NCBI RefSeq assembly: GCF_011682235.2
Contig: NZ_CP076718.1
Coordinates: 803,758 to 867,757, forward strand
Source: Rhodocaloribacter litoris
Lineage (GTDB): Bacteria > Bacteroidota > Rhodothermia > Rhodothermales > ISCAR-4553
Direction: 5' to 3'
Length of the DNA: 64,000 bases
The position numbers were made by a program, and so were the translations under genes. The notes below the pieces were generated by a model. It saw only the letters and a list, made by a program, of their open reading frames with translations, made no database searches and was not told where the DNA came from. Below, one piece after another: positions 20,692 to 50,865 of this stretch (the first letter of the stretch is position 1; each line of letters starts with the position of its first letter).

Positions 20692-22647
20692 TTAACCGGC
20701 CGTGCTGCCTATTTCCCGGTGCCTTGCCGCACCCGCCGCGACAGGCGGCTCTGCAGGCCGGCGATCCGGCTCGCCGGGTTCATACCGGAACAGCCGCATG
20801 AAGTCGGCACAGGCCTGCTCAACGACCCGCACCTCCTCCGGACGAAGCACGCCGGCGTAGGCGCCTACCCGGGCACGGGACACCTGCTTCCCGTAAAGCT
20901 CGGAGAACCGGGGATTCTGCGCCTTCCGTTCGAAGTCGACCGTTCCGGTATCGAGTCGTTCCCCATCGGGCAGCTTCAGTTCGAGGCCGGTAAATTCCTG
21001 TACCTCGTCGAGAATGCCCTCCGGGTTTTGTACCAGATCCTCGTACCGCACGAAGAGCATCCGGTCCCAGAACCGCTCCTCCTGAACGGTCCAGAGCGGC
21101 GCGTAAAACGCCATGAGGTACCGGCAGAGGGCGACGAGATCCCGGCCTCGCGTGGCCTGTGCCACGAAGTCGTTCCGCCCCTGCGCCAGCATCTTCTCCC
21201 CGACTTTCAGGAGCGAGGCGACCACGTCGCGCGGATCGCGTACCATGCAAATGAACCGCGCCGAGGGTAGTAGTTCGTACACCTCCGGGAAGGTTTTCGT
21301 CATCTTCGGATCCTTGAGCACGAGATGAGCCGATCCCCCGACGCGCGCCCGGGTTCGTTCGATAAACTGCTTTACGAGACCCGCATTATACCGGCGGAAA
21401 TCCTCCTCGCTGTCGAAAAATTGCGGCACCTGGTGCTGTATGCTGCCTTTTGCGAGGCGATAAGCCGCCATGAGGCACCGCAGGTAATGCGCCTCAGGCA
21501 GCTTTGGATTGCTCGTCGGGGCCTGACAGAGCAGGGTCTCCATAAGCGTCGTCCCGGAACGCGCCGCCCCCCCGACGAAGACGACCTCCTCTCCGACCGC
21601 CTCGTCCGGCGTCCCAACCTTGCGGGTACGCACAGCCATGGCACCCTGCTGGTCACCGGCCAGCATCGCCGCCCCGGTCTCCGAAAGCATGGCGACGAAT
21701 TCCGGGGGTAGTTCGTCCCGGTGGACCTTCAGGTAGTCCAGCACCTGGTGGGCCTCACCCGTTGCCGGGCAAAGGTCGGTCTCGATGAGCAGCCCGGCCA
21801 CGACCGCCGCTACCTGCCGCCCCAGACCGTAGCTCTGCTGCAGCACGTTGCCCCGGTTGAGGAGGATTCGAACCAGTTGCGCCCGGTTCAGCACACCGGC
21901 GTGCTCCAGGTAGAACCCCCCAACGACCATGGCAACCAGGTGCATGAGTGCTTTTTCCGAGCTAAAGTGCTGGCGGTACGAGAGCGAGCCGGCGTGAATG
22001 CGCCGCATATACCGTCCGGTCTCCGTTACATAAACCCGGCGATCGGGATAGCGGGCACAGAGCCTCACTATTAACATAAAGTCTTCAGCAAATTTGAAAA
22101 AAGGCTCTGGAAGGACAGACACTACATCGTCCCTGCGAAACACAGCACCAGCTCCGAAAACTTGCATCTCACCGGTTAAAATCATCCGCGTCAAGACTTC
22201 TATACCCTTTTTTCCATGTATGGACCTACGATTGTACTGTAGCCTCACGTCACTATCAATTATTGCATACATCTCTGGAACCATAACCATAACAGCATCT
22301 GATTTCGCATTCCATACATCTAGAGCCTCACACAAAAAGACATCTCTATCATCTAAGTAGTCATCATCATCTACACGCACAAAAAATGTGGTTTTCGCAT
22401 TTATTACTCCTGTCCCTAATGCAGCCGCCACACCTTGGTTATTATCGTGACGATGTATCTCAAAACCGTGTTTATTCGCAATAATATTTAGTTGTCCCGC
22501 GATTTCAGGAGACGATCCATCATCTACCAGAGTCAGGGAAACTTTATTCCAAAGACCAGCTTCAACATGTCGGGAAAAGTATTCAGGACGGTTAAAAGTC
22601 GGGATGACAACCGTCACATCGCGTGCGGGATCAAAGACTTCGTTCAT
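20692..22647 (-). CDS. Fused glycosyltransferase family 2 + sulfotransferase
   Basis: 651 residues with two enzymes in one chain. Residues 1-240 form a GT-A glycosyltransferase: VTVVIPTFNRPEY, LTLVDDGSS, the DxD-like VDDDDYLDD near 93-100. Residues about 350-610 form a PAPS-dependent sulfotransferase: 5'-phosphosulfate loop ARSGTTLME (362-370) and 3'-phosphate motif MVRDPRDVVASLL near 465. The middle (240-340) is helical. The base composition changes inside the gene: 22060-22640, coding for the glycosyltransferase, is about 37-40% G+C in places, while the sulfotransferase part is above 70%. Likely to decorate a surface glycan or the flagellin with a sulfated sugar (inference). Confidence 0.85.
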   Translation of the reverse strand: MNEVFDPARDVTVVIPTFNRPEYFSRHVEAGLWNKVSLTLVDDGSSPEIAGQLNIIANKHGFEIHRHDNNQGVAAALGTGVINAKTTFFVRVDDDDYLDDRDVFLCEALDVWNAKSDAVMVMVPEMYAIIDSDVRLQYNRRSIHGKKGIEVLTRMILTGEMQVFGAGAVFRRDDVVSVLPEPFFKFAEDFMLIVRLCARYPDRRVYVTETGRYMRRIHAGSLSYRQHFSSEKALMHLVAMVVGGFYLEHAGVLNRAQLVRILLNRGNVLQQSYGLGRQVAAVVAGLLIETDLCPATGEAHQVLDYLKVHRDELPPEFVAMLSETGAAMLAGDQQGAMAVRTRKVGTPDEAVGEEVVFVGGAARSGTTLMETLLCQAPTSNPKLPEAHYLRCLMAAYRLAKGSIQHQVPQFFDSEEDFRRYNAGLVKQFIERTRARVGGSAHLVLKDPKMTKTFPEVYELLPSARFICMVRDPRDVVASLLKVGEKMLAQGRNDFVAQATRGRDLVALCRYLMAFYAPLWTVQEERFWDRMLFVRYEDLVQNPEGILDEVQEFTGLELKLPDGERLDTGTVDFERKAQNPRFSELYGKQVSRARVGAYAGVLRPEEVRVVEQACADFMRLFRYEPGEPDRRPAEPPVAAGAARHREIGSTAG

Positions 22648-22682
22648 GTCAACTGGGGTCTGGGGGGTGCAGAAACGAGGAA

Positions 22683-24092
22683 TCAGGTGTGCCCGGCCAC
22701 CCGGATGGCAGGTCCGGCAGGGCGAGGGGTCAAAACACCGGGCGCACCGTTCGTGAGGCGTGCGAGTAGCGCCCGTATCCGCGCCACTTGTTTCTCGAGC
22801 GCGTAGTGTCCCTCAATGAAGGCCCGGTAGAGCCGGGAGTCGTACTCGTCGGAGGTAATCATCTCGACGGCCTCGTCGACGGTGTTGAAGAGCATCTCCT
22901 CGGCCCACGTCTCATAGGCAAAGGGGAAGTTGTGTACGACGGGCTTGATTCCCCGGGCCATGGCTTCGGCTATGGCATAGCCGAAACTCTCGTGGATGCT
23001 GGTTGAAAGAAAATAATCCTTGTCTTCGAGCCAGGAAGCTATGTCGTCCTGCCACCCGTCAAAATGTATGTTCCTTTCCAAACCCATTTCACGGATCATG
23101 TAGTGCATATACATTTCGAGAAGCGGATCCTGAAACGTTCCGGCAATGAAAAGTTGATAGCGCGGATCTCGCTGTACCAGGCGCTGCATAATCTGGAGCA
23201 TCATCATATGGTTCTTCGCAAGGCGAAGATACCCAACAGAGGCAATACGGTATCCGGTCGAGCGTTCCCGAAAAGCGTATCGTTCCAGATCGACACCGTT
23301 GCGTATCACGTCAACGATACATCCCTCCACCGCCAAAGAAACGGAGGCTTCTACAAGGCGCCGTACATAGTCTGCCACGAAAATCAGGGCATCAACGGTC
23401 TTCCAGTTCACCTGAGACGGATAGTCCGAGAACGCCTCGTAGCGATGTAGGCGGCAGATGATCTTTTTCTCACGGGCCAGCGGATGGCGGCTGGCGTAGA
23501 CGAGCGGGTCGTTGCACCACTCGAACCAGCAGACGTCCCCCCAACGCAGGGCTTCCTCGACACCGGAAGTGCTATTCACCACGAACTTGCGGACCTCGTA
23601 ATCCGCTACCAGTTCGCGGGGAATGTCGTCAAGAAACTGATCCAGGCCTTCGCGAACGATGAAAGCGAGCTTCACGGGAGAGACGGGGTCGGTGAAGCCG
23701 GCCTCACGCAGGCGTTCCCAGTAGGGTGCCAGCTGTTGGAGTTCGTTCTCGCCGGCCACCCGGCGCGCACGGGTATACAGCCGGGCTGCCCGCTCTTGAT
23801 GCCCCTGCTCCAGGTAAAGATTCCCGAGCATCAGGAGACAACCGAAGTGGTCGGGGTTACGCACGAGGGCAGCCGCCAGCGTCCGCTCGGCGCCGCGACG
23901 ATCCCCTTCGCCCAGATAGACCGCGGCCTCGACGGACGGCAGGTCTTCGTCATCGGGAAAGCGGGCGCGGTGCCGGGCGATAGCCTCCCGGGTTGCCCCG
24001 ACGTCACCGGCTTCCAGACGTTCGAAAATGGCCATGAGACCGGCTACCCGATCACGGTCGTGGATGGGGGCTCCCCCCTCTGTGGCGCTCAT
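22683..24092 (-). CDS. TPR-containing glycosyltransferase (GT4-like)
   Basis: 469 residues. Residues 15-130 are tetratricopeptide-like helices (FERLEAGDVGATREAIARHRARFP, LGNLYLEQGHQERAARLYTRARRV). The rest is a GT-B glycosyltransferase: acceptor-side half with WCNDPLVY and a nucleotide-sugar half with SVGYLRLAKNH, FIAGTFQDP and the conserved STSIHESFGYAIAEAMARGIKPV (EX7E motif). It is 35 bp upstream of the GT2-sulfotransferase on the same strand, so the two probably act in one glycan pathway. TPR-glycosyltransferases often act on proteins, including flagellins. The C-terminal half shows reduced GC. Confidence 0.85.
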   Translation of the reverse strand: MSATEGGAPIHDRDRVAGLMAIFERLEAGDVGATREAIARHRARFPDDEDLPSVEAAVYLGEGDRRGAERTLAAALVRNPDHFGCLLMLGNLYLEQGHQERAARLYTRARRVAGENELQQLAPYWERLREAGFTDPVSPVKLAFIVREGLDQFLDDIPRELVADYEVRKFVVNSTSGVEEALRWGDVCWFEWCNDPLVYASRHPLAREKKIICRLHRYEAFSDYPSQVNWKTVDALIFVADYVRRLVEASVSLAVEGCIVDVIRNGVDLERYAFRERSTGYRIASVGYLRLAKNHMMMLQIMQRLVQRDPRYQLFIAGTFQDPLLEMYMHYMIREMGLERNIHFDGWQDDIASWLEDKDYFLSTSIHESFGYAIAEAMARGIKPVVHNFPFAYETWAEEMLFNTVDEAVEMITSDEYDSRLYRAFIEGHYALEKQVARIRALLARLTNGAPGVLTPRPAGPAIRVAGHT

Positions 24093-32137: not shown

Positions 32138-33064
32138 ATGATGCGTTCGATCAGCCTGGCCCGTCAGATGAGCCTGAGCAAAGGCTCCCTGCCCTATACC
32201 CTGCAGGTGCACCGGCGCGACCTGTCCCGCCTGCAGGAGCAACTGGCCACCGGCCGCCGCGTCAACCGGGCCTCGGACGACGCCGGCGCCTACGCACAGG
32301 CCCGCCGCCTGGAAGTGCTCATCGACCGGTACGACCAGTATGAGCGCAGCCTCACCACCGCGCAGGCCTGGGTCGTCGCCACGCAGGATGCCCTGGACGA
32401 CCTGGCCGAGCTGTTCACCACGGCCCAGGAGGAAGGCATACAGGCCGCCAACGACTCCCTGAGCGACGAGGACCGGGACGCCCTGGCCGCCTCCCTGGAA
32501 AACATGTTCCAGGAAGTGCTGGACCGGCTCAACACGCGCCTGGGCGAGGAGTATCTCTTCGCCGGCACCAACACGACCGTCCGGCCCTTCGAACAGGACT
32601 TCTCCGGCACGGCCGACGGGGCGGGGGTCACGTACTACGGCAACGGGGGAGCCCGCCTCCGGGCCGTCGGCCCCGACCTCGACGTGGGGGTGAACCTCAC
32701 CGGCCAGCGCGTGCTCGATACCGGCCAGGGCTTCACCATCACCGAAGCGTTTCAGGGCCTGATCGACGCCATCCGAACCCACGACAGCGCTCAGATTCAG
32801 ACGGCCCTGGACAACGTGATCACGGCCCGGGACCACCTCCTGGACATGGGCACGGAAGCCGGCAACCTCGCCAACCGGCTCGACCGTGCCGGAGAGTACC
32901 TCCGGGACGCCCGCTTCGAGTTCGAACGCCGGCGTTCCGCCCATGAGGACGCCGACCTCGCCGAGACCATCACGGAACTCCAGCGCACGCAGACGAACCT
33001 GCAGGCCACGCTCCAGGTGATGGCCTCCCTGAACCAGACCACCCTGCTCGACTTCCTCCGCTAA
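32138..33064 (+). CDS. flgL: Flagellar hook-associated protein 3 (FlgL)
   Basis: 308 residues. The flagellin-like N-terminus LHRRDLSRLQEQLATGRRVNRASDDAGAYAQARRLEVLIDRYDQYERSL and C-terminus AETITELQRTQTNLQATLQVMASLNQTTLLDFL identify FlgL; the intervening LGEEYLFAGTNTTVRPF is its typical D1 strand. Tandem ATG codons (32138, 32141) make the exact start uncertain by one residue. Forms the second junction layer beneath the filament. Confidence 0.95.
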   Translation: MMRSISLARQMSLSKGSLPYTLQVHRRDLSRLQEQLATGRRVNRASDDAGAYAQARRLEVLIDRYDQYERSLTTAQAWVVATQDALDDLAELFTTAQEEGIQAANDSLSDEDRDALAASLENMFQEVLDRLNTRLGEEYLFAGTNTTVRPFEQDFSGTADGAGVTYYGNGGARLRAVGPDLDVGVNLTGQRVLDTGQGFTITEAFQGLIDAIRTHDSAQIQTALDNVITARDHLLDMGTEAGNLANRLDRAGEYLRDARFEFERRRSAHEDADLAETITELQRTQTNLQATLQVMASLNQTTLLDFLR

Positions 33065-33082: not shown

Positions 33083-33922
33083 ATGCTGCGCAAAGTCGAT
33101 ACCACCGAGTCCCAGGGGTTCCTGGCGCACTATCGCATCCCGCCCCTGTCCTTCGTGCCGCACGCCCGGCTTCCCCGCGTCATCCGGCCGGTCTGGGAGG
33201 CGCTGAATGCAGGCAACCCGGCGATGGCGATCATGCGCGCCCGCCACATCCTGCTGACGCACCAGCCGGCCACGCAGAGCGAGCGGGCCGCGCTCAAGGT
33301 GGGGCTGGCGGCCGCCGAGCTCTACAGCGGCGCCTCCGACGGTGCCAGGCGGCTGGCCGGGCACGCCCTGGACCTGTACCCCGGCCAGTGGTCCGCCCAC
33401 CGGATCATCCTGACGATCCTGACGGCACAGCGTGCCTACAAGGCCGCCTACATGCACCTGGTCAGCCTGGCTCCCGCCGGGCCGGTTCCCCTCTGGGATG
33501 AACCCCTTTCGGAGCAGGAACGCCACCTGGCGCTGGCCTCATGGGCCTGGCACCTGGCCGAATGGGAAACGGTGGCCCACCACCTGCAGGCCGCCTACCC
33601 GCAGGGCCTCGAAACCCTGCCGCCGGCGTTGCTGGAAGACTGGTTCCGGCTGTCCTTCTACCGCAACCAGCCGGAAGAAGCCGCTGCGGCCGCAGCCCTG
33701 CTCATCGCCGAACGGCCGGCCCAGAGCGCCGACGAGGTGCTGCAAACCCTGGTCCAGTGCGGATGGACGAAAGAGGCCCTTCCCCTCTACCGCACCGCCT
33801 TTGCCCGGGAACCCCGTAGCGAGCTGCTCCGGCGCCGTCTCGTGGCCCTCTGTATCCGCGAAGGCAAGCTGGACGAAGCCCGTGCGTTGACCCAGCCCGG
33901 CGCGCTGAGCCTGGCCGCCTGA
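33083..33922 (+). CDS. TPR-like helical repeat protein, function unknown
   Basis: 279 residues, all-helical, with repeats resembling tetratricopeptides: ALNAGNPAMAIMRARHILLTHQP, AAELYSGASDGARRLAGHALDLYPGQWSAHRIILTILTAQRAYKAAYMHLVSL, AWHLAEWETVAHHLQAAYP, LVQCGWTKEALPLYRTAFAREPRSELLRRRLVALCIREGKLDEARALTQPG. No signal peptide or membrane helix; Trp-rich. It lies 18 bp after flgL and 24 bp before the HDOD gene, so it is probably part of the same transcript and may scaffold a flagellar or signalling complex (inference). Confidence 0.75.
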   Translation: MLRKVDTTESQGFLAHYRIPPLSFVPHARLPRVIRPVWEALNAGNPAMAIMRARHILLTHQPATQSERAALKVGLAAAELYSGASDGARRLAGHALDLYPGQWSAHRIILTILTAQRAYKAAYMHLVSLAPAGPVPLWDEPLSEQERHLALASWAWHLAEWETVAHHLQAAYPQGLETLPPALLEDWFRLSFYRNQPEEAAAAAALLIAERPAQSADEVLQTLVQCGWTKEALPLYRTAFAREPRSELLRRRLVALCIREGKLDEARALTQPGALSLAA

Positions 33923-33946
33923 GCCGCCTCTCCCGAGTGATGCCGC

Positions 33947-34969
33947 ATGCAGCCCAACGGGACATCCAGACCGGCTTTTCGTTCCACGCTGAGCCAGCTC
34001 GAGCTGCGGAGCCCCCCGCTGCCCCACACGCTGCTCGAAGCCATGGAGCTCATCGACCGGCCGGACCAGCTCGAGGTGGAACCGGTCATCGAAATGGTGC
34101 AGCGCGACCCGATCGTCGTGGCCCGCCTGCTCCAGATTGTCAACTCGGCCTACTACGGGTTGCAGCGCTCCATCGACAGCGTCGACCGGGCCGTGGTGCT
34201 GCTCGGCCCTGTGGCCGTGACGGGCATCGTGCTCGGCATGAACATGCTCAAGCTGCGCTCGGCCCTCGAAGGCCCGGCCTCCCACTGCTTCATCCGGCTG
34301 ATCCGGCACAGCATCGCCACGGCGTTCCTCACACGCCACCTCATGGAGGGCCCGCCACGCCTCGGCACCCCGCACAACCGCGTGCGTCGCACGGGCACCA
34401 GCTTCACGGCCGGGTTGCTCCACGACTTCGGCAAGATCATTCTCGTGTACAACTTCCCCCGCGAGGCCGTCGAACTCTACGAACAACGCGTCTATGAAGA
34501 ACAGATACGGGCCGACGACATCCGGTCACTCGAACAGCTTCTCTTCGGCTACGACCACACCGAAGCCGGCGAGTACGTGGCCCGTAAGCTCGGCTTTCCC
34601 GAGGTCCTCGTGAACGTGATTCGCCTGCATCACGAACCCGTGCCCGGCACGGGCGACGCCGAGACCGATCATCTCATCCGGACCACCGTCGCCGCCGACC
34701 TGACGGCGAAGGCGCTCGGCTATCCGTTCCACGATCGCGTCTCCCGGGAACAATGCCTCGCACACCCCGTCTGGCGGGAAGTGTGCACCGGCACTTCCGC
34801 TCGCCCCGCGCCCGAAGCCCTCTCGCAAGAGCTGCAGGCGGTGCGCGAACACCTCGACGCCTACGTCCGGCACATGACGGCCTCGCTGTCTTCCCCCCCT
34901 TCCGCCGAAGACAGGGCCCGCAAGCGCAACTTCCGGGGCCTGCCCGGGTCCAACGTCCCCCGTTCCTGA
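33947..34969 (+). CDS. HDOD domain signalling protein
   Basis: 340 residues. The HDOD domain spans about 12-215: LPHTLLEAMELIDRP, VVARLLQIVNSAYYGLQRSIDSVDRAVVLLGPVAVTGIVLG, and GLLHDFGKIIL. Unlike many HDOD proteins it keeps an HDxGK motif and further His residues (IRHSIATAF, GYDHTEAG, RLHHEP), so metal binding is conceivable. HDOD proteins act in motility, biofilm and cyclic-nucleotide signalling without a single known biochemical role. The tail after residue 300 is disordered and basic. It sits between a TPR gene and a degenerate receiver in the tail of the flgF-flgL operon. Confidence 0.87.
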   Translation: MQPNGTSRPAFRSTLSQLELRSPPLPHTLLEAMELIDRPDQLEVEPVIEMVQRDPIVVARLLQIVNSAYYGLQRSIDSVDRAVVLLGPVAVTGIVLGMNMLKLRSALEGPASHCFIRLIRHSIATAFLTRHLMEGPPRLGTPHNRVRRTGTSFTAGLLHDFGKIILVYNFPREAVELYEQRVYEEQIRADDIRSLEQLLFGYDHTEAGEYVARKLGFPEVLVNVIRLHHEPVPGTGDAETDHLIRTTVAADLTAKALGYPFHDRVSREQCLAHPVWREVCTGTSARPAPEALSQELQAVREHLDAYVRHMTASLSSPPSAEDRARKRNFRGLPGSNVPRS

Positions 34970-34985
34970 GCAACCCTGACATGCC

Positions 34986-35426
34986 ATGACGATCCTGGTC
35001 GTCGAGCCTTCGGCCACCACGAGACGCCTCATCAGCAACACGCTCATCCGGGCCGGCCTCCCGGCGATCGAAGAAGCCGCGAGCGGCGAAGAGGCCCTCG
35101 ACGTGGCGGAGCGTGCCTATCCTCTGGTCGTCATCCTGGGGTATGACCTGGGCGACATGCGCGGGATCGAGCTGACCGCCCGGCTTCGCAAAACCAGCCG
35201 CCACAGCCAGACCCCGGTGCTCCTCGTCTCGGAACGCTGCACCCACGAAGACGTGCTGTATGCCGTGGAAGCCGGCGTCGATCACTACGTGCTCATCCCG
35301 TTCGAGTCGGACGGCTTCCTCCAGAAGGTCCGGGCTGCCATCCAGAAGGCAACCCACCATGCGGCCGACCATGCCGCACGCGTCATACCGCTCAAGAAGC
35401 GCTACATCTCACGGCGGATGCGTTGA
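34986..35426 (+). CDS. CheY-like receiver domain lacking the phosphoacceptor Asp
   Basis: 146 residues: one receiver domain (1-120) and a basic tail (ARVIPLKKRYISRRMR). The fold is clear from ILVVEPSATTRRLISNTLIRAGL, EEAASGEEALDVA, MRGIELTARLRKTSRHSQTPVLLVSE and VEAGVDHYVLIPFE. Key residues are altered: the acidic pair is Val6-Glu7, the phosphorylated Asp is Gly52 (VVILGY; Asp54 is two positions off), and the switch Lys before Pro-Phe is Ile. The conserved Ser/Thr is kept (LLVSE). It cannot be phosphorylated in the normal way and is a pseudo-receiver. It follows the HDOD gene by 16 bp. Confidence 0.85.
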   Translation: MTILVVEPSATTRRLISNTLIRAGLPAIEEAASGEEALDVAERAYPLVVILGYDLGDMRGIELTARLRKTSRHSQTPVLLVSERCTHEDVLYAVEAGVDHYVLIPFESDGFLQKVRAAIQKATHHAADHAARVIPLKKRYISRRMR

Positions 35427-35481: not shown

Positions 35482-35655
35482 CGTTATGCAGGCGGTTGCG
35501 ACCGGCAACCCGGCACGTTTTTTTCAACGTGTCGTGGTGTCTTTCAAAAGCCTGTTTTTCTGCCATATTGGCGGATCTGGACGTATCGAGGAATCATCCG
35601 GCGGGTGTGACCGTCCAGAGAACGGCACACCCTGCAAAAACGAAGGAACAACGAC

Positions 35656-43814: not shown

Positions 43815-44996
43815 TCAGGCGGCCCCGCGTCGCTCCGCATAGACGATGCCCAGCTTCAGGGAAGCGATCAGGGCCTTGATGGCCTTCGCTCCGTATTCTT
43901 TCTTTTCCCGCAGCGCCTGGAAGGCCCGTGCATGGTCCCCCAGGCCGCTCCGGGCACACAGCACCCCCAGGATGCGCAGCAACTCGTCCGGGTTCAACAC
44001 GAAGCGTACGGCGGTTCCGGCGGCCTCGTTCAGGTTATAGGCTTCGAGCAGCATCAGCATGCCGTCGCCGGGTTTTTGTGCAGCCAGCAACGCCAGCCCG
44101 GTGGTGTAGTAGGCGATCGGCTCCCGGCGGTCGAGTGTGAGCATCTCGTTGGCATGCACCAGAGCCGCCGGGATGTTGTTCAGCTTGAGGGCGGCCTGGG
44201 CCGCCAGGAGATGGGTGTAAAAGGCATTCTGAGGCAATAGCAGGCGGTAATCCAGCTCTCCGGTGATGTCGACGACATCCTGGTATTGCTTGAGAATGAA
44301 ATAGGCCACGGCAAGCTGGTAGCCGTAGTAAGCCCGATATTTTGCCGAGCGCGGCCGCGTGTACTCCGCCTTGAGTAGTTCGATCCGCGGCGTATACTTC
44401 TGCACCATTCCTTCCGCCGAAAGGGCATAGCCGGTGTGGATGATTTCGGCCTCGACGCGGACGAGCTTCCGGCCGGTGCGCTCCATGTAGGCGAGGAGCT
44501 TCTCCTGTACCTGATGGTGCACGCGCCCTTCGTAGCGGATCTGTGGGTCGTTGCGGAAGATGCGCTCCTGCCACACCCGGTCGGCCGCCATGATCTGCCC
44601 CTCGGGCAGCAGGTTACGCACCAGCAGTTGTGCCGCGGCAACCTCCGGATGGCGGATGATTTTTCGTATACGCTGCCAGTGACGATCGTCCGGCAGGTAC
44701 TCGTCGCCGTCGAGGACCAGGATGAAGTCCCCGCCGGCCTTGTCGAAGGTATAGTTGCGGGCGACGGCGAAGGAACCGGGCCATTCGATCTCCTCGAAAA
44801 CGTCTGCATAGCGCCGGGCGATCTCCTGCGTTCCGTCGGTCGAGCCGGTGTCGATGACCACGATCTCGTCCACATGAGGCCGGGCGAGGGAGAGACACCG
44901 CTCCAGGTTCTCCGCCTCGTTCTTGACCATCATACTGAGGGAAAGGGACGGCTCTCGTTTGCGCCTGCGGGCGATCTTTCTTGCTGCTCGGGCCAT
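43815..44996 (-). CDS. Glycosyltransferase family 2 with TPR-like C-terminus; candidate flagellin glycosyltransferase
   Basis: 393 residues. The GT-A domain (15-230) has LSLSMMVKNEAENLERCLSLARPHVDEIVVIDTGSTDGTQEIARRYADVF, the metal site FILVLDGDEYL and RNYTFDKAGGDF, as in the SunS-like/TPR family of peptide and protein glycosyltransferases. The C-terminal 160 residues are TPR-like helices (AYYGYQLAVAYFILKQYQDVVDI, AAQAALKLNNIPAALVHANEML). It starts next to fliS and ends against the flagellins. Position and architecture suggest O-glycosylation of flagellin Ser/Thr; this is inference. Confidence 0.82.
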   Translation of the reverse strand: MARAARKIARRRKREPSLSLSMMVKNEAENLERCLSLARPHVDEIVVIDTGSTDGTQEIARRYADVFEEIEWPGSFAVARNYTFDKAGGDFILVLDGDEYLPDDRHWQRIRKIIRHPEVAAAQLLVRNLLPEGQIMAADRVWQERIFRNDPQIRYEGRVHHQVQEKLLAYMERTGRKLVRVEAEIIHTGYALSAEGMVQKYTPRIELLKAEYTRPRSAKYRAYYGYQLAVAYFILKQYQDVVDITGELDYRLLLPQNAFYTHLLAAQAALKLNNIPAALVHANEMLTLDRREPIAYYTTGLALLAAQKPGDGMLMLLEAYNLNEAAGTAVRFVLNPDELLRILGVLCARSGLGDHARAFQALREKKEYGAKAIKALIASLKLGIVYAERRGAA

Positions 44997-47771: not shown

Positions 47772-48173
47772 ATGGACATCCGCAACGCCACCCCGGGCCT
47801 GAACGGTACCACGCCCCTGCAGCCCGCTTCCCCCCACGAAACGGGAAAGCCGGAACCGAACGTGCGCCCCGCACCGCTCGACCGCGCCTCCACCGCCTCC
47901 CCCGGCGACCGGCTGGACCTCTCCCCCGAGGTACAGGCACGCCTGGAGGTGCAGCGCAACCCCGAGACCCTCTTCGCGCGCAAGGCCCTCAACGAACTGC
48001 CGGGGCTGAGCCAGGAACGCCTGGAAACCATCAAAAGCCGCCTGGAAGAAGGGTATTACAGCCTCCCGAAGGTGCTGTCCGTCATCGCCGACCGGGTAGC
48101 CGATGAGCTGTCGGGCGACCTGCACGCCAAGGCCGGGCTACACACCGGCTCTCCCGGTGAGCACGACGGCTAG
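47772..48173 (+). CDS. flgM: FlgM-like anti-sigma-28 factor
   Basis: 133 residues. The disordered N-terminal half is Pro/Gly-rich; the C-terminal half has DRLDLSPEVQ and, about residues 75-115, LNELPGLSQERLETIKSRLEEGYYSLPKVLSVIADRVADEL, which matches the FlgM helical region that binds sigma-28. FlgM holds FliA inactive until the hook is finished and it is exported. Its stop codon overlaps that of the convergent regulator gene (CTAG). Its presence supports the sigma-28 promoters found nearby. Confidence 0.8.
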   Translation: MDIRNATPGLNGTTPLQPASPHETGKPEPNVRPAPLDRASTASPGDRLDLSPEVQARLEVQRNPETLFARKALNELPGLSQERLETIKSRLEEGYYSLPKVLSVIADRVADELSGDLHAKAGLHTGSPGEHDG

Positions 48174-49549
48174 ATGTACCCCTCCTCCCGGTACTTACGG
48201 AGCTTGTTACGAATGGTGCGGGCACTGATGCCCAGCCGCTCCGCCGCCATCTGCTGGTTGTTGCCCGTCTCCGAGAGCGTCTGCAGAATCATATAACGCT
48301 CCATATCCTCGATCGTCTGCAGCGTATCCGGCGGCCGCTCTCCCGCCCCGGCCTCAAGGTTCTCCGAGAAGAACTCGTCGAAGACGTGCTCCACCGCAAT
48401 CGTCTCCTCGTCACCGCTGAGCACCACACCCCGGTGCACCAGGTTCTCCAGCTGCCGCACGTTGCCGGGCCAGTGATAAGCCTTGAAACGATCGAGCAAC
48501 TCCTTTGAAAGGGTCTTCTCCGGCAGTTCGTAGATCTCGCAGTATTTTTTGACGAAGTGCCGTGCCAGCAGCGGGACGTCGCTGCTACGCTCCCGCAACG
48601 GCGGCACCGAGAGGGGAAAAACGGCGAGGCGATGGTACAGGTCTTCCCGGAAGACGCCTTCGCTGATGGCCTCGCTCAGGTCCCGGTTGCTCGTGGCGAT
48701 GACCCGCACGTCCACCTTTTGCGTCTCGGTGGAACCCACCTTCTGGAACTCGTGCTCTTGCAGCACCCGCAGCAGCTTGGCCTGCACGGGCAGGTCGATC
48801 TCGGTGATTTCGTCGAGCAGGAGGGTGCCGCCGTCGGCGCGCTCGAAGGCTCCCGTCATGTCGTCGATGGCGCCGGTAAAGGCTCCCTTGCGATGGCCGA
48901 AGAGGTGGCTTTCGACCAGCTCGCGCGGCAGGTTGGCACAGTTGATGGTCACGTAGGGCCCGCCGGCCCGGTCGCTGATCTGGTGGATCAGGCGTGCGAG
49001 CACTTCCTTGCCGGTACCACTTTCGCCCTGGATGAAGACGGGGGCTCGGTTCCGGGCCACCCGGGGCAGCATGGCTTTGAGCCGTTTGATGCTCGGGGCC
49101 TCGCCAATGTACTCCACGGTCGCCCCTTTCGCCCGGCCTGCCGGCTTCGCCCGGGGCCGCTTCGTCTCGGGAGCAGGCACCGGCGCCGCCAGGGAGGCCT
49201 TCACCCGTTCGACCAGGTCGGCCGTGGTGAAAGGCTTCGGGATGTAGTCGAAGGCGCCGTGTTGCATGGTGCGCACGGCATGCTGCACGTTGGCATGCGC
49301 CGTGATCATGATGACCCGGGTCGAAGGATACTCCTGGCGGATGTGGGCCAGCAGCTCCAGCCCGTCCATGTCCGGCATCATGAAGTCGGTCACCACCAGA
49401 TCGAACGCCTGCTCCTTGAGCAGTTCCATGGCCTGCAGGGCGTTGGAACAACTGACCACCTGCATGCCGTGCCGGGCAAAAAGACGCTCAAAAAGGTTGT
49501 GGAGAAGCTGCTCGTCGTCGACGAAGAGGATGCGCGGTTGCCGATCCAT
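48170..49549 (-). CDS. Sigma-54-dependent response regulator (NtrC family), probable flagellar activator
   Basis: 459 residues in three domains. Receiver (1-125) with the phospho-Asp55 (LVVTDFMMP), Asp11-Asp12 and Lys in PKPF. AAA+ sigma-54 activation domain (about 155-390): Walker A GESGTGKEV, GAFTGA loop, Walker B TLLLDEITEID. Fis-type helix-turn-helix (about 425-459) with QQMAAERLGISARTIRNKLRKYR. The GAFTGA motif shows it contacts sigma-54. Next to the kinase gene and flanked by flagellar operons with -24/-12 promoters, it is likely the FlgR/FleR-type master regulator. The ATG at 49549 is chosen over a frame that extends 58 codons upstream. Confidence 0.9.
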   Translation of the reverse strand: MDRQPRILFVDDEQLLHNLFERLFARHGMQVVSCSNALQAMELLKEQAFDLVVTDFMMPDMDGLELLAHIRQEYPSTRVIMITAHANVQHAVRTMQHGAFDYIPKPFTTADLVERVKASLAAPVPAPETKRPRAKPAGRAKGATVEYIGEAPSIKRLKAMLPRVARNRAPVFIQGESGTGKEVLARLIHQISDRAGGPYVTINCANLPRELVESHLFGHRKGAFTGAIDDMTGAFERADGGTLLLDEITEIDLPVQAKLLRVLQEHEFQKVGSTETQKVDVRVIATSNRDLSEAISEGVFREDLYHRLAVFPLSVPPLRERSSDVPLLARHFVKKYCEIYELPEKTLSKELLDRFKAYHWPGNVRQLENLVHRGVVLSGDEETIAVEHVFDEFFSENLEAGAGERPPDTLQTIEDMERYMILQTLSETGNNQQMAAERLGISARTIRNKLRKYREEGYI

Positions 49550-49667: not shown

Positions 49668-50423
49668 TCACGCACTTCCCGGACGAAGCCCGGACCGGTT
49701 GCCTTCCGTTCCAGGACCGGCAAGCGGCAGCGTCAGCACGAAGCAGATGCCGGACTCGGCACCGTTGGCAGCCAGCTCCAGCCGTCCCCCGTGCGCTTCG
49801 GCGATCCGGCGCCCGATGCAAAGCCCGACCCCCAGGTTGTGTGCCTTGGTCGTGAAAAAGGGCATGAACACCTTGCTTTCGGCTTCCTCTTCGTCGATCC
49901 GGCCGTCATTGTGGACCTCGAACCGGATCACCTCGTTCGGCGGGTCCGGTATGACCCGAAAGCGCACGTCGCCGCCGCTGCGGGTGGCATCGAGGGCGTT
50001 CTGGAGCAACACGAGCAGGGCCTGGCGCAACAGAACGGGATCGGCCATGAAGAACAGGTGGCCGTGCGGTGGCACCTCGAAGCGAATCCGTTCCAGATCG
50101 GCCTCGTCGACGGCCGCGAGCAGGTTCTCCAGCACGTCACGCAACCCCACGCGGGAGAACACGGGTTCGACCGGCTCGCTGTAACGCTGCAAGTCGGCCA
50201 GGATCCGTTCGATCCGGACGGTGCTCTCGAGGATACGGAACGCCAGATCGCGCTGCTCGCGGGTGGGCAGCGAATCGATCAGCAGGTCGGTATAGCCTTC
50301 GATGCCGGCGACCAGGCCCCGCAGGCGATGGGCCAGCACGAGCGCCAGGTGACCCAGCGAGGCCTCCTCGTCGACGCGGTGCACCGGCCGGGATACCCCC
50401 GCCCGGTCGAACCGCTCGGGCAT
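49668..50423 (-). CDS. Sensor histidine kinase, cytosolic, with an altered H-box
   Basis: 251 residues. It has no membrane segment and almost no sensor domain. HisKA: LALVLAHRLRGLVAGIEGYTDLL, where the phosphorylated His is followed by Arg rather than the usual Glu/Asp, and the NPL triad is replaced by GLV. ATP-binding domain: N box LLVLLQNALDAT, G1 VHNDGRID, F box FMPFFTTK, G2 NLGVGLCIGRRIAEAHGG. It is 118 bp upstream of the regulator on the same strand. The start is uncertain: GTG at 50498 would add 25 residues. Similar to FlgS in layout; sensing a flagellar export state is conceivable. Confidence 0.82.
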   Translation of the reverse strand: MPERFDRAGVSRPVHRVDEEASLGHLALVLAHRLRGLVAGIEGYTDLLIDSLPTREQRDLAFRILESTVRIERILADLQRYSEPVEPVFSRVGLRDVLENLLAAVDEADLERIRFEVPPHGHLFFMADPVLLRQALLVLLQNALDATRSGGDVRFRVIPDPPNEVIRFEVHNDGRIDEEEAESKVFMPFFTTKAHNLGVGLCIGRRIAEAHGGRLELAANGAESGICFVLTLPLAGPGTEGNRSGLRPGSA

Positions 50424-50865
50424 GAAACGTTCTGTCACAGGGTCCACGCTGCCCTCCACCTTGAGAGATACGGCCGGCAGGGAGCCGCCGGCCCGCACGT
50501 GCCCCTCCGTGGATCAAACGACATGCCGCCCTCAGCCCCCGCAGCCGGCGCGTGGACAGCCCGGAACGCCCTCTCCGAAACCGGCAAGAATTTCCCGGAT
50601 GCGGCGCATTTTCCCGCCCCGCCCGTCCGGGTCGTCCGGGACACGCCCGCGCCTCTCCTCGCTCTTTCACAGGGACCCAATCCAGGGCGTATCGGCTACA
50701 CAGGGCCGTGCTTAAACGACGGCCCGTTGCTTTTCCGGGCCGGTCCGGGGAGGTCCTCGCGCAACACCCCCCGCACGACCGCCCCCCCTCCGGCATCCCC
50801 CGGCTTCGGGCACAGAGGTTGCACAGGCCGGAGGCAGACAAGCAAACGAATGCCTTTCGCGAGAC
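50424..50865. other. Intergenic region between the kinase gene and flgB
   Basis: 442 bp with no credible gene; the frames there lack ribosome sites. It should carry the kinase promoter (minus) and the flgB promoter (plus); the sigma-54-like element at 50806-50823 is in it. The sequence is Pro/Arg-type GC-rich with no repeats. Confidence 0.6.
50806..50823 (+). promoter_or_regulatory. Sigma-54-type -24/-12 promoter of the flgB operon
   Basis: TTCGGGCACAGAGGTTGCAC: -24 GG at 50809-50810, exactly 10 bases, -12 GC at 50821-50822; GGCAC-N5-TTGCA matches the consensus GGCAC-N5-TTGCA apart from the base before GG. The flgB ATG is 43 bases after the -12. The nearby regulator at 48170 has the sigma-54-contacting GAFTGA motif. 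Confidence 0.65.

Follow-up and report, generated by a model that had tools for sequence, protein, structure and literature searches.

The window analyzed here, the whole stretch of 64,000 nucleotides from the Rhodocaloribacter litoris genome, carries three closely spaced genes at the end of a hook-filament operon:

32138..33064, + strand: flgL, the last gene of flgH-flgI-flgJ-flgN-flgK-flgL, directly upstream of the trio
33083..33922, + strand: TPR-superhelix protein of 279 amino acids, retained more widely than the other two members of the module (34 distinct related loci)
33947..34969, + strand: HDOD protein of 340 amino acids, with a Pfam HDOD match, a structure model and potential metal ligands
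34986..35426, + strand: pseudo-receiver of 146 amino acids, aspartate-less and CheY-derived, with Glu7-Pro8, Gly52 and Ile104
35511..35534, + strand: terminator-like hairpin after the trio; the number of such sites is within chance expectation

The TPR gene starts 18 bp after the flgL stop codon. The order TPR, HDOD and receiver after flgK-flgL and the gaps given in the preliminary description (24 bp between TPR and HDOD and 16 bp between HDOD and the receiver) are confirmed, with all three open reading frames on the + strand. No sigma-70 promoter was found within the trio.

We searched 100 genomes of the class and a genome collection with a TPR alignment, together with a non-exhaustive contig scan that used one peptide pattern. 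Many of the searched genomes are metagenome-assembled (MAGs), and gene starts outside the window are estimates. The trio was found in the same order in nine loci, namely the window, L105 (a Rhodothermales MAG, whose TPR protein is 71% identical) and seven loci of one genus-level group (Rhodothermus-type). Six of the seven Rhodothermus-type loci have an HDOD stop that overlaps the start of the receiver gene, suggesting that the two are translationally coupled; this overlap and the shared order in nine loci indicate that the order of the trio goes beyond chance. In one relative of this type (L097:11317-12650, genome G006), about 1.3 kb separates HDOD and pseudo-receiver, which may reflect a mobile-element insertion. 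Conservation of the trio next to flgL is thus evident, but the full trio is limited to the window, L105 and the Rhodothermus type.

The wider unit is TPR-HDOD, or TPR alone, rather than the full trio. We identified 34 distinct TPR loci (33 distinct TPR proteins plus the truncated L125), of which 16 have flgL as the immediate upstream neighbor and 17 are located beside flrC and fliA, and in one (L109) the contig is too short to tell. Linkage to either flgL or flrC-fliA was therefore seen in 33 of the 33 readable loci, a count that treats related genomes separately and does not represent independent events; three different arrangements support the TPR linkage. We use the term cassette for a locus in which a sigma-28 gene and an NtrC-type regulator occur within about 6 kb of each other and no structural flagellar gene was found. 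HDOD accompanies TPR in 12 of the 17 cassettes and is absent from the other five and from three flgL-linked TPR loci. HDOD is also found after flgL without TPR (f6 and f13). Since each occurs without the other, TPR and HDOD are separable. In the two f14 clusters (L073:6937-16679 and L074:6216-15839), flgL is followed by TPR, a glycosyltransferase gene, cheW, HDOD, cheR, cheA, cheB, cheY and a CheZ-like gene, and in one of the two an FlrC relative follows the CheZ-like gene. Roughly half of the TPR loci are not near structural flagellar genes, which would speak against a flagellar association, but each readable one of these adjoins flagellar regulators. No report of a TPR-HDOD-receiver module, or of regulator retention after flagellum loss, was found among open-access papers.

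The Pfam match of the TPR protein is weak (TPR_19, 24.9 bits against a cut-off of 25). Its AlphaFold model (21 sequences, mean pLDDT 89) is a TPR superhelix, the helical superhelix expected of a TPR repeat protein, and a fold search returned only generic TPR arrays as the nearest solved folds. The HDOD protein belongs to the HDOD family (PF08668, E=2.9e-37, covering profile positions 2-196 of 196), carries the reported HDxGK motif as HDFGK, and its structure model (pLDDT 81) matches MmoQ, SadB and Cj0248. It has six potential metal ligands, His121, His159, Asp160, His204, His228 and His229, which are kept in 14-15 of 15 HDOD copies linked to flagellar or chemotaxis genes (13 flgL-linked and the two che-linked f14 copies). 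The earlier characterization of this protein as non-catalytic is therefore not supported, and a hydrolase or ligand-binding function is possible in flagellates, where the candidate ligands are kept. In the non-flagellate HDOD copies, most of the potential ligands have been lost. A second HDOD protein in the same genome (G000:C1:2110157-2111065; L032, L077) is 45% identical and lies away from the flagellar genes found here.

The 146-residue receiver is recognized by Pfam Response_reg (E=5.2e-17). It was claimed to carry Gly52 in place of the phosphorylated Asp, Val-Glu for the acidic pair and Ile for the switch Lys. Gly52 and Ile104 are as claimed, and alignment to canonical CheY proteins of related genomes places the acidic pair at Glu7-Pro8, one residue away from the position given. 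Among the nine orthologous receivers, Gly replaces Asp in all nine, and Ile, Met or Val replaces Lys in all nine. The acidic pair, phospho-Asp and Lys that characterize CheY are therefore not present together, and the protein fits the definition of an aspartate-less receiver (ALR), a receiver fold without the phospho-Asp that is conserved in orthologues. We also checked Asp54 as a substitute acceptor. Only the receivers of the window and L105 carry it, and the other seven orthologues have Thr, His, Asn or Tyr, so that Asp54 is ruled out as a general feature and phosphorylation is not rescued in general. These results support the earlier view that the receiver is unable to signal by normal phosphorylation. 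In a maximum-likelihood tree, the nine pseudo-receivers form one clade (100/98) that groups with flagellar CheY (95/91); the order within the clade is unsure because of long branches, for which the tree program issued a warning. Judged from alignment and tree, the pseudo-receiver is a CheY-related protein kept without its phosphorylation site, and it is a lineage-specific addition of the window and Rhodothermus types. Another flagellar CheY-like protein (L131, G073:C5:29338-29673), from a flagellate genome with no CheA match, also lacks the Asp (ITGWNMP) and the Lys (VVRPF) and falls outside the pseudo-receiver clade.

TPR, with or without HDOD, stays with FlrC and FliA where the flagellum has been lost. 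FlhA is absent from 14 of the 17 cassette genomes; FlgI is absent from all nine that were tested among those 14 (95-100% complete), and the CheA dimerisation domain is missing from all 14. The three cassette genomes with FlhA (L106, L111 and L124) have TPR beside flrC-fliA and next to a FlgM-like gene, so that loss of the flagellum does not by itself account for the split from the structural genes. One flagellate (G032) has TPR-HDOD and no CheA match. Taken together, these observations speak against TPR-HDOD acting in the motor, in export or in chemotaxis and favor a function in transcription control. This persistence, which lies outside the segment originally noted, is the most interesting part of the analysis.

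Counterparts of the cassette regulators are present in the window, where they have been named from domain content and position:

47772..48173, + strand: FlgM-like anti-sigma-28 protein, convergent with flrC (weak Pfam match, E=0.014; shared C-terminal motif; conserved position)
48170..49549, - strand: FlrC-like sigma-54 activator of the NtrC type, orthologue of the cassette regulator (66-72% identical)
49668..50498, - strand: FlrB-like histidine kinase with HisKA and HATPase only and no sensor domain; its start codon is uncertain

A genome-wide FlgM profile search of the window genome missed the FlgM-like protein, which was recognized only from its position, its motif and a weak match of the single protein. 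The usual cassette orders are TPR-HDOD-flrB-flrC-mem-fliA and TPR-flgM (convergent) flrC-mem-fliA, and in HDOD-bearing cassettes TPR and HDOD lie directly upstream of flrB. The gene designated mem encodes about 100 amino acids without a Pfam match and precedes fliA in most cassettes (L083-L093, L108-L125). In the window genome it is found outside the window (G000:C1:890075; L137:5076), again before fliA (G000:C1:890459-891217, 75% identical). Its product is probably a membrane protein and is an unrecognised companion of sigma-28.

This gene set resembles the FlrBC, FleSR and FlgSR two-component systems with sigma-54 and FlgM-FliA in having an NtrC-type regulator with a sigma-54 domain, a soluble kinase, FliA and a FlgM-like protein in the flagellar region. 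PAS or coiled-coil input regions have been predicted in FlrB, FleS and FlgS elsewhere (PMC7064773), whereas no such region was found in FlrB here. It also differs from those systems in that TPR and HDOD genes accompany the circuit and that the circuit is kept without FlhA. Because FlrB has no recognisable input region and both genes are directly upstream of flrB in HDOD-bearing cassettes, TPR and HDOD are the best candidates for the FlrB input.

We then consider promoter sites. In the 17 cassette loci (270 kb), 11 sigma-54-type sites that match the consensus at 11 or more of 12 positions were seen, versus 1.8 expected under a first-order model, the loci with strong sites being related to one another. 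Ten of these 11 sites are located at most 120 bp upstream of TPR or mem-fliA on the same strand. In six non-flagellates, a stricter pattern occurs only one to three times per genome; seven of the ten occurrences are in the cassette, and the rest do not exceed the reversed-pattern control. Because cassette sites were used to define this pattern, what counts is how rarely it occurs in the rest of the genome. No sigma-54-type site was found in several cassettes, including L083 and L108. Sigma-54 control is thus supported, as a prediction, for part of the cassettes. In the window genome, mem-fliA and flgB have sites with nine and ten matches, respectively, which carry little weight because a window this large should contain sites of that quality by chance, and nothing convincing was found before the window's own operon genes. 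The flgB site is as follows:

50808..50823, + strand: possible sigma-54 site 42 bp upstream of flgB, with 10 of 12 matches (chance level for the window size)

Considering gene content and gene order together, we think it fairly probable that TPR and HDOD are cytoplasmic parts of the Rhodothermota flagellar transcription-control circuit and not structural or motor parts. Membership of TPR-HDOD in the sigma-54/FlrBC-FlgM-FliA arm is well supported, and we infer the biochemical step of its action as follows. The circuit would run from sigma-54 with FlrB and FlrC to FlgM and sigma-28/FliA. TPR-HDOD follow flgL in flagellates and therefore would be made at the hook-filament junction stage, a stage that they could report back to the circuit. 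The pair would most likely give FlrB its input in trans through protein contact, and altered FlrC phosphorylation would change fliA and flagellin expression, the direction of this effect being presumed. In the window and Rhodothermus types, a CheY-derived receiver that has lost normal phosphorylation has been added, probably as a constitutive docking subunit on HDOD. Such docking is probable because receiver-HDOD fusions exist, one of them in the Rhodothermus-type genome G003, and aspartate-less receivers are enriched with HDOD effector (output) domains (PMC4395418). The separate pseudo-receiver and HDOD could then be a split version of these fusions; they share with ALRs the loss of the phospho-Asp, here across the whole clade, but are encoded by separate adjacent genes, and the receiver is CheY-derived. 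As a more tentative proposal, for which the chances are somewhat below even, FlrBC, FlgM (in some genomes) and FliA may form a checkpoint circuit with TPR-HDOD input, in which TPR is the conserved trans-acting sensor, the circuit is reused after flagellum loss, and a dead CheY tunes it in some flagellates. Of the checkpoint or localisation complex suggested in the preliminary description, flagellar regulation is retained, with the checkpoint being the better half, but localisation is not supported.

Two other roles for the signalling proteins were weighed against the transcription-control reading. The sister relationship of the pseudo-receiver to flagellar CheY, the position of HDOD between cheW and cheR in f14, and the resemblance of overexpression of the HDOD protein PSPTO_4229 to cheY loss (PMC11813219) would all fit a trio acting on chemotaxis or the motor, with a dead CheY relative competing with CheY-P at the switch or CheA and with HDOD and TPR as partners. 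We regard this as unlikely, given that TPR-HDOD are kept without FlhA and CheA as well as in the CheA-less flagellate. A general chemotaxis role of TPR-HDOD is rejected on the same ground, CheA being missing where the pair persists; an effect on chemotaxis or the motor is possible for the pseudo-receiver alone. It is similarly improbable that HDOD, as an HD-type enzyme that is active or binds a ligand such as cyclic di-GMP, senses a nucleotide signal for flagellar genes, with TPR and the receiver in accessory roles. The six potential ligands in flagellum-linked or che-linked copies and the binding of cyclic di-GMP by SadB, an HDOD protein (PMC6543031), are consistent with this explanation, but most ligands have been lost from the non-flagellate copies that remain in the cassette, and HDOD has been reported to lack HD-GYP phosphodiesterase activity (PMC6543031).

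TPR could also serve the hook-junction or filament proteins as a scaffold or as a chaperone in their export, its linkage to regulators being operon history only. TPR folds often bind peptides, and the TPR gene comes after flgN-flgK-flgL, both of which count in favor of such a role. We nevertheless consider it very unlikely, since TPR is kept in 14 genomes that lack the export gate FlhA, with no structural flagellar gene nearby. Finally, replacement of FliW-CsrA was discarded as a candidate function: FliW is absent in 11 of the 12 genomes tested and is present only in G084 (after flgL), and it shows no tie to TPR-HDOD.

In the transcription-control reading, a sensorless kinase that travels with the TPR-HDOD pair offers directly testable input candidates, the signal of flagellar sigma-54 kinases being open (PMC7064773). 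HDOD proteins alter motility in other bacteria, including GsmR in Xanthomonas, Cj0248 in Campylobacter, and SadB and PSPTO_4229 in Pseudomonas (PMC11004494, PMC6543031, PMC11813219), and the fixed linkage to flrB-flrC and fliA provides a concrete target for testing how they may do so. The protein described here shares the HDOD domain with them, and Cj0248 and SadB are among its best structural matches, but it differs in its linkage to TPR and to either flgL or flrBC-fliA, and it contains neither a YbaK domain nor a fused receiver. That the circuit survives where the flagellum has been lost also raises the question of what else the flagellar sigma-28 system controls. Elsewhere in the window, glycosyltransferases are encoded on the minus strand (43815-44996 and 20692-24092), close to the flagellins and on the upstream side of the flagellar operon. 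One of them is fused to a sulfotransferase domain, and a function in flagellin modification is possible for these proteins.
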